Notes under the pieces: generated by a model
The model's input: only the letters and a program-made list of their open reading frames with translations
Databases searched by the model: none
What the model was told of the DNA's origin: nothing
Translations under genes and position numbers: made by a program
Assembly: GCA_017984635.1 (NCBI GenBank)
Contig: JAGNZC010000006.1
Location: forward strand, 1-64,000
Source: Crocinitomicaceae bacterium
GTDB lineage: Bacteria > Bacteroidota > Bacteroidia > Flavobacteriales_D > Crocinitomicaceae
Direction: 5' to 3'
Length of the DNA stretch: 64,000 nucleotides
Part shown: piece after piece, positions 3-1,465 of the stretch
Numbering within the stretch: the first letter of the stretch is position 1
Layout of the letters: each line of letters begins with the position of its first letter

Positions 3-1103
3 GTAGGTGGTTGTCCTTTAGGATATAAGAACGGTAGAAATCATATTAATCGTCCTGTTATTCTTCCAGAAGGAGGGATAAAAGAAAAGTATGTAAAGGA
101 AGCTTTCAAACTCTTTTCAACTGGATTTTATGCAGTAGAAGATTTAAGGAAAAAATTAAACTCAAGAGAATTATATGTAAGCAGAAATTCATTTTGGAAC
201 CTATTACACAATAAAGTTTACATAGGGTTAATCTTTGTTCCAGCCATTAAAAATGAACCTGAGGAATATGTAAAAGGTCAACACATTCCCATAATTGATG
301 AAGGAACTTTTTACAAATGTCAAGAGGTATTTGAAAGAAGAAAGAAAAAGACAACAACAGCTTTAAAAGCAGTCAGAGATGAATTTCCTTTACGCGGTCA
401 TTTAATTTGTCCTAAATGTGGTAAAATGCTTACTGGTTCTTCTTCCAAAGGAAAACAAGGAGTACGTTATCCTTATTACCATTGTGGGAAAGGTTGTAAA
501 GAACGACAAAGTGCAGAGAAAGTAAATGATTCATTTGTGAAATTGTTAAACACACTAAATTTCAAACCTAATCGATTACAATTATTGGGGGAAATAATAA
601 AAGATAAATATGCAAATAGCACAGAAGAATCTAAACAGGAACTTTTTCGAACTCAACAAAAAATAGATAAATCTAAACAGCGTTTAGCGAATGCACGTAT
701 GTTAATGTTGGATGGTGATATCACAGCAAACGAGTACAAAGAATTGAAAAATGAGATTGAAAATTCTATCTTAATTGAAACAAGAAACATGATTGAAATT
801 TCGAATTCAATTAGTTCTATTGACAAAAAAATTGTGCGAAACTTAGAATTGCTCTCAAACATCAAAAACACTTATACAGAAAGGGATACAGAGATAAAAC
901 GTAGGATAATAAGTTCGATGTTTCCTGAAAAATTAATTTTTGAAAAAAATTCAGTTCGAACTCTTTTTACGAACCAACTCGTATCGCTAATACTCAATGA
1001 TGGCAAGCCTTCCAGGAATTCAAAAAAAGAAAAGCACACCGAATTTGGCGTGCTTTCCCTTGAAGTGGAGTCGGAGGGGTTCGAACCCTCGTCCAAACGA
1101 TGA
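3..1103 (+). CDS. Large serine recombinase, C-terminal part (5' end outside window)
   Basis: The frame is open from the window edge, so the N-terminal catalytic domain and start are missing. What remains is a Recombinase domain (begins VGGCPLGYKNGRN), then a zinc ribbon with CPKCGK and CGKGCKE cysteine pairs, then a Lys/Glu-rich coiled coil. This is the usual C-terminal order of large serine integrases, which insert or excise phages and islands. The last 28 or so residues are encoded by the antisense of the ssrA terminator and ssrA 3' end, and the TGA stop lies inside ssrA. That tail (ending VESEGFEPSSKR) is host RNA-gene sequence read as protein and is unlikely to be ancestral to the enzyme. 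Family assignment is firm; whether it is active cannot be judged. Confidence 0.88.
   Translation, partial: VGGCPLGYKNGRNHINRPVILPEGGIKEKYVKEAFKLFSTGFYAVEDLRKKLNSRELYVSRNSFWNLLHNKVYIGLIFVPAIKNEPEEYVKGQHIPIIDEGTFYKCQEVFERRKKKTTTALKAVRDEFPLRGHLICPKCGKMLTGSSSKGKQGVRYPYYHCGKGCKERQSAEKVNDSFVKLLNTLNFKPNRLQLLGEIIKDKYANSTEESKQELFRTQQKIDKSKQRLANARMLMLDGDITANEYKELKNEIENSILIETRNMIEISNSISSIDKKIVRNLELLSNIKNTYTERDTEIKRRIISSMFPEKLIFEKNSVRTLFTNQLVSLILNDGKPSRNSKKEKHTEFGVLSLEVESEGFEPSSKR
1021..1056 (-). terminator. Rho-independent terminator of ssrA
   Basis: Arms AAAGCAC (1031-1037) and GTGCTTT (1050-1056) pair, with a further CC/GG pair after one mismatch and a 6-base loop. On the minus strand the hairpin is followed by a T-rich tract (plus-strand A run 1022-1033). 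It lies just downstream of the tmRNA 3' end and inside the recombinase reading frame on the other strand. Confidence 0.8.
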
Positions 1104-1465
1104 GTTTTCAAGCTTTCTACATGCTTAGTTCATAATTGGTTTTCGATGAAGAGACGGACATGAACACCCAAGCTCAACACTTAAATTCTGTTGTCTTACA
1201 CCTGCTTAGAATTGTCACAGTTGCCAGCTCAAAAGTTTGAACTCTCGAATATCAAACCTAATGAGCAGAGGCTTGAAGAGAGTACTTGTCGATCCTACTA
1301 TGCTTCAAATCGATTAAGCCAATTAACATTCCGTTAATTAAGCAGCAAGTGCGTATGACGTGTTGTCAATTATAGTTCGAAGCAAGATATTATAGAGGTT
1401 CACTCCAACCCTCTGCATGCTGACACTTGACTACCGCTACCGCTGTCAAATCCAAAAACGACCCC
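1066..1465 (-). ncRNA. ssrA: tmRNA (transfer-messenger RNA)
   Basis: Rescues stalled ribosomes by trans-translation. The acceptor stem forms between GGGGTCG (5', at 1465) and CGACTCC (3', 1067-1073), including a G3-U pair as needed for alanine charging. The T-arm carries GGTTCGAACC. The 5' domain shows the tmRNA-typical TTTGACAGCG, and the 3' part matches the conserved CATGTAGAAAGC and GTTTGGACGAGGG stretches I know from Bacteroidota tmRNAs. The tag frame (1338-1367, minus) reads D-N-T-S-Y-A-L-A-A then TAA. The terminal CCA is not encoded. Length about 400 nt. Confidence 0.95.

Follow-up and report, generated by a model that had tools for sequence, protein, structure and literature searches.

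The large serine recombinase gene at the left edge of the analyzed DNA very likely marks the attL end of a mobile island integrated at the 3′ end of the tmRNA gene ssrA, with an ssrA terminator brought in by the element itself. Here, the window denotes the whole stretch of 64,000 nucleotides, which starts at one end of contig C39 in a draft genome of 91 contigs (G000). The arrangement is not a single case, as comparison across genomes indicates that a clade of serine recombinases in the Bacteroidia shares it at the 3′ ends of RNA genes.

The recombinase gene and its missing N-terminus

The recombinase frame is open on the plus strand from the third base of the window to a TGA at 1101-1103, which lies inside ssrA (Table 1). 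Its product carries the Pfam domains Recombinase (1.1e-9) and Zn_ribbon_recom (1.5e-5). A genome-wide search with the resolvase domain revealed a resolvase N-terminus on contig C27 of this genome, cut off by the contig end. When aligned with a full-length relative from genome G005, C27 accounts for residues 1-121 and the window for the last 366, leaving about 33 codons (~98 bp) unassembled and giving a total length of about 520 residues. The missing N-terminus very probably lies on C27, with protein homology as the sole basis for joining C27 to C39. Between catalytic motif and tail, the frame is interrupted only by the assembly gap. The order of domains, a Resolvase catalytic domain at the end of C27 followed by Recombinase and zinc ribbon in the window, is that of a large serine recombinase. 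The preliminary description was therefore right to use this name although the window itself is devoid of a catalytic domain, since the resolvase N-terminus aligns with the missing part.

The best NCBIfam relatives, determined for the G005 family member, are XisF (1.8e-31) and CcrB (9.3e-30), with scores of 104-110 bits that lie far below the curated CcrB and XisF equivalog cut-offs of 900 and 375. Neither the SCC cassettes of CcrB nor the fdxN element of XisF are known to target tRNA genes. The G005 protein is 58% identical, and its gene, at the end of contig C17 (L065), stops at a tRNA-like 3′ fragment adjoining an apparent 5S rRNA gene; no complete tRNA was recognized at this contig end.

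Table 1 Features of the recombinase-ssrA junction (window coordinates unless a contig is given).
Feature	Position	Strand	Basis
Large serine recombinase, C-terminal 366 codons	3..1103	+	Recombinase domain, zinc ribbon and C-terminal region; 5′ end lost at contig edge
N-terminal half of the recombinase (probable)	G000:C27:36167-36530		Alignment with full-length G005 relative
Intrinsic ssrA terminator within the recombinase coding frame, probably element-supplied	1021..1056	-	Moves with the recombinase; different in element-free congeners
ssrA (tmRNA), tag DNTSYALAA, 3′ end probably rebuilt at the junction	1065..1465	-	Rfam RF00023 at 8e-49
Putative attL core: ssrA 3′ end, acceptor stem to T-loop, common to attP and attB	1066..1088	.	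attR repeats of G061, G050 and G035; ssrA-type junction of G022
Last codons and stop of the recombinase frame, predicted as the part that can only be host sequence	1089..1103	+	Position of the core

A terminator embedded in a coding frame

The frame had been described as running through the ssrA terminator and 38 bases of ssrA on the opposite strand, and the open frame, the tmRNA call and the predicted fold all confirm this. The 38 bases of overlap (1066-1103) are counted from the unpaired discriminator A at 1066. On the ssrA strand, positions 1010-1072 fold into a hairpin followed by a U-run (−24.6 kcal/mol, z −4.86). As a whole, a single stretch of DNA encodes protein on one strand and the terminator of an RNA gene on the other. 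The ssrA gene is intact at the junction, as is characteristic of islands that sit at the 3′ end of an RNA gene and restore it.

We compared the junction with the ssrA 3′ regions of congeners. The recombinase lies beside ssrA in the window genome and in G019, that is, in 2 of the 17 congeneric ssrA loci with a 3′ flank, and is therefore not a fixed neighbor of ssrA. This bears out the earlier proposal of an element at the ssrA 3′ end, and most relatives lack this element. Among more distant genomes, G059 (contig C21) and the loci L054 and L055 also have the recombinase at ssrA. The remaining congeners carry unrelated sequence at the ssrA 3′ flank and, with the exception of G017, unrelated terminators; across the genus, the downstream flank of ssrA is too variable to define an ancestral empty site.

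The terminator follows the recombinase rather than the RNA gene. Its type (GCACxCC...GGTGTGC followed by a T-run) is found at ssrA only together with a window-type recombinase, and additionally in G017. The same combination of recombinase tail and terminator adjoins ssrA in G019, G059:C21, L054 and L055, tRNA-Phe in G059:C4, and the tRNA-like 3′ end in G005, so that within G059 one tail and terminator type meets ssrA on one contig and tRNA-Phe on another. Because it follows the recombinase across genomes and targets, the terminator appears to travel with the element, which indicates that it belongs to the element and not to the host.

Attachment sites and probable position of the crossover

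The far end was searched for in relatives with long contigs, leading to the identification of three attR repeats of 17-21 bp at distances of 15-32 kb. These are copies of the ends of tRNA-Val in G061 (19/19 bp, 15.4 kb away), tRNA-Asn in G050 (20/21 bp, 18.1 kb) and tRNA-Met in G035 (17/17 bp, 32 kb). All three extend from the RNA 3′ end to about the T-loop, stop at the RNA 3′ end and exclude the terminator, and a different terminator hairpin, the displaced one of the host, is present on the host side of each repeat. Since the repeats comprise the RNA end without the terminator and another hairpin stands beside attR, the crossover falls within the end of the RNA gene, with the new terminator provided by the element and that of the host displaced. 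We infer that recombination takes place within the last ~20 bases of the RNA gene, a position transferred from these relatives to the ssrA of the window. The host-encoded part of the recombinase would then comprise at most about the last 5-12 residues. A host-derived protein tail had been suggested previously. The joining of the integrase gene to host sequence stands for the final few codons, while the terminator and most of the tail, which recur at other targets, are probably supplied by the element.

In the preliminary description, a short direct repeat of ssrA flanking the island was named as support. In the window genome itself, BLAST and pattern searches of the draft assembly revealed no second copy of the ssrA end at up to 3 mismatches in 22 bases. 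The flanking repeat is thus seen in the three relatives with tRNA targets, but not for the ssrA end in this draft genome. The proposed extension of the element to the left, beyond the window, is also supported. C27 is colinear with a flank of G017, the closest relative, that directly abuts ssrA; the corresponding interval of G000 spans about 23 kb, with the recombinase at its end. A second family member in G000, on contig C83 (L002; L096/L097), overlaps tRNA-Met in antisense. At a distance of 22.6 kb upstream of this recombinase, the same tail and terminator recur as a remnant interrupted by stops, which suggests an older or tandem insertion.

Recurrence across the Bacteroidia

In a class-wide set of 70 genes with a Recombinase domain, 35 end at the 3′ end of an antisense tRNA or tmRNA, 33 of them overlapping; as these genes are the top of a score-ordered list, the fraction is not a population estimate. 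In the same 70 genes, there was no RNA gene at the 5′ end and no tRNA or tmRNA on the same strand at the 3′ end, and the overlap is therefore more than chance. In a set of 49 overlapping genes, 48 have a hairpin and T-run that resemble a terminator of the RNA strand and lie inside the recombinase frame. Over the last 120 bases, stops interrupt frame +1 in 45 of the 49 and frame +2 in all; since frame 0 is open by construction in this set, the informative values are how often stops occur in the two other frames and how much of the clade extends into an RNA gene. Of 27 cases that could be scored, 23 read through the T-loop in one common register (GFEP-like).

When the last 40 residues are left out of the tree, the arrangement is seen in 50 of 61 rows of one group, compared with 0 of 19 in the neighboring group. 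Support for the former is moderate (85), and part of its rows had been selected for their resemblance to the window protein. The tree implies at least 35 switches of target among about 20 RNA genes. Five rows (L054, L089, L133, L162 and L169) are probably mis-picked longest open reading frames or long branches and were left out of the conclusions.

Proposed integration mechanism

According to the model that we propose, a large serine recombinase of this Bacteroidia clade would recombine a short core that forms the 3′ terminus of an RNA gene; in the window, this is the 3′ strand of the ssrA acceptor stem and T-arm. The element would carry a copy of this core together with its own terminator, which is embedded in the recombinase gene near its 3′ end. 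Integration would rebuild a complete and terminated ssrA on the recombinase side and push the original terminator to attR. The recombinase gene has no stop codon before the core; it receives its stop from ssrA in the integrated state and would receive it from the other end of the element in the presumed circular form, and the last residues would consequently change with the integration state. Joining the element ends in silico illustrates this for the three relatives with both ends. In G061, the tail would read ...VGDVGFEPTTPCL when integrated and ...VGDVGLFYDPPAPNSEIK... when circular; in G050, GLEPRTL would be replaced by GLES, and in G035, TRLERATFGL by TRPPSNKELAEDIHNIQLF. Speculatively, the missing stop could be functional, such that integration swaps an element-end tail for an RNA-gene tail and thereby switches the stability or direction of the enzyme, with the block of core, terminator and tail having served to re-target the clade at least 35 times; we regard this extension as rather unlikely.

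Alternative explanations

The structure of the G017 locus (L068, end of G017:C34; L067, start of G017:C28) allows the junction to be read differently. G017 has the element-type ssrA terminator and no recombinase, is 98% identical to G000 through the terminator, and then diverges at TCAAAA, the same point as the left flank of G000. The crossover could accordingly have occurred to the left of the terminator, at a TCAAAA microhomology, in which case terminator and ssrA end would both be host sequence and G017 a true empty site. We consider this improbable, as the terminator type accompanies the recombinase across genera and targets and the attR repeats of relatives are RNA-gene ends rather than terminators. 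The pseudogene remnant of tail and terminator in the tRNA-Met region of G000 further demonstrates that such scars persist. A plain empty site is disfavored for G017, whose retained element-type terminator makes the scar of a lost island the likely interpretation.

It is hardly credible that the recombinase gene merely runs into a neighboring RNA gene by chance, with no integration at ssrA. A single overlap could be such an accident, and the G000 draft genome holds no repeat, yet the recurrence in half of the 70 genes with none at 5′ ends or on the same strand, the switching of targets and the attR repeats all contradict it. A site formed as proposed here whose recombinase and island have since decayed and become immobile, with only the rebuilt ssrA end retained, is possible, though clearly the less probable outcome. 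Such a relic would be compatible with our preferred explanation of its origin, and it would fit the lack of an attR in the draft genome, the lack of recognized transfer genes in the scanned cargo and the frequent decay seen in G017 and in the C83 remnant. Against it stands the recombinase frame, which is uninterrupted outside the assembly gap. No transfer genes were seen among the cargo genes scanned, and the mobility of the island is therefore presumed.

Relation to known systems

The preliminary description considered a serine recombinase at ssrA less usual than a tyrosine integrase, which is correct, but a direct precedent exists in DsiB of Dehalococcoides. This serine recombinase of ~540 residues is related to CcrB and is found in islands at the ssrA 3′ end with a direct repeat of ~20 bp (McMurdie et al. 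2011, PMC3146451). In every case, its gene runs across attL and reaches a stop only on the far side, within ssrA or a neighboring island, and tandem islands occur. The window recombinase likewise overlaps attL and stops in ssrA. In contrast, DsiB comes from a different phylum and has a small serine recombinase, DsiA, as its partner in a module of six genes (PMC3146451). A genome-wide Resolvase search identified no separate small recombinase on C27 or in the window, between which ~98 bp are missing and in which the left end of the island is not mapped; the region of the G050 relative does encode one. The DsiB report (PMC3146451) concerns ssrA only, whereas the Bacteroidia clade also uses about 20 tRNA genes, and we found no mention in it of an embedded, element-borne terminator such as that of the Bacteroidia clade.

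The window element resembles the tDNA islands collected by Islander, which have tyrosine integrases, in its integration at a tRNA or tmRNA 3′ end and in the restoration of the gene by the element (PMC4383910). In those islands a displaced fragment marks the far end, as it does in the three Bacteroidia relatives with tRNA targets. Unlike classical tDNA islands, the integrase here is a serine and not a tyrosine recombinase. Serine-recombinase IMEs of Firmicutes share the large serine recombinase and the short core, but are reported to disrupt dispensable genes and not to restore an RNA gene (PMC5704250).

In 2014, tRNA genes were stated not to be among the known targets of serine integrases (PMC4383910). 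The main text of a paper on the discovery of large serine recombinases (LSRs) does not mention tRNA (PMC10083194), and the TIGER 2025 resource gives totals in which integrase class is not crossed with target (PMC12424338). Within the literature covered, we found no description of a clade of serine integrases with many tRNA targets, and we do not claim to be the first to notice one. With about 20 RNA genes as targets, the Bacteroidia clade would be a natural series for studying how serine integrases change targets. As tRNA 3′ ends are conserved landing sites, it would also be a source of predictable integrase/attB pairs.

Carriers, cargo and tandem copies

An IMG/VR search with the window protein returned no relatives, and the phage and plasmid records among the rows listed contained only distant LSRs of <30% identity, so that no phage or plasmid carrier was identified. 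The part of the island on C27 encodes a two-component pair and several proteins with T9SS sorting tails.

Copies of the recombinase tail or terminator in G022:C10 (L069) and G021:C141 (L070) lead into a short core resembling that of ssrA and then into unrelated sequence, with no adjoining ssrA gene, and are probably internal junctions of tandem islands. In G050:C9 (L103/L104), the 18 kb between the tRNA-Asn repeats encode a small serine recombinase (213 aa) along with an apparent type I restriction-modification system and a toxin-antitoxin-like pair, identities that were read from the sequences and are not database matches. This region is a candidate defense island of the recombinase family.
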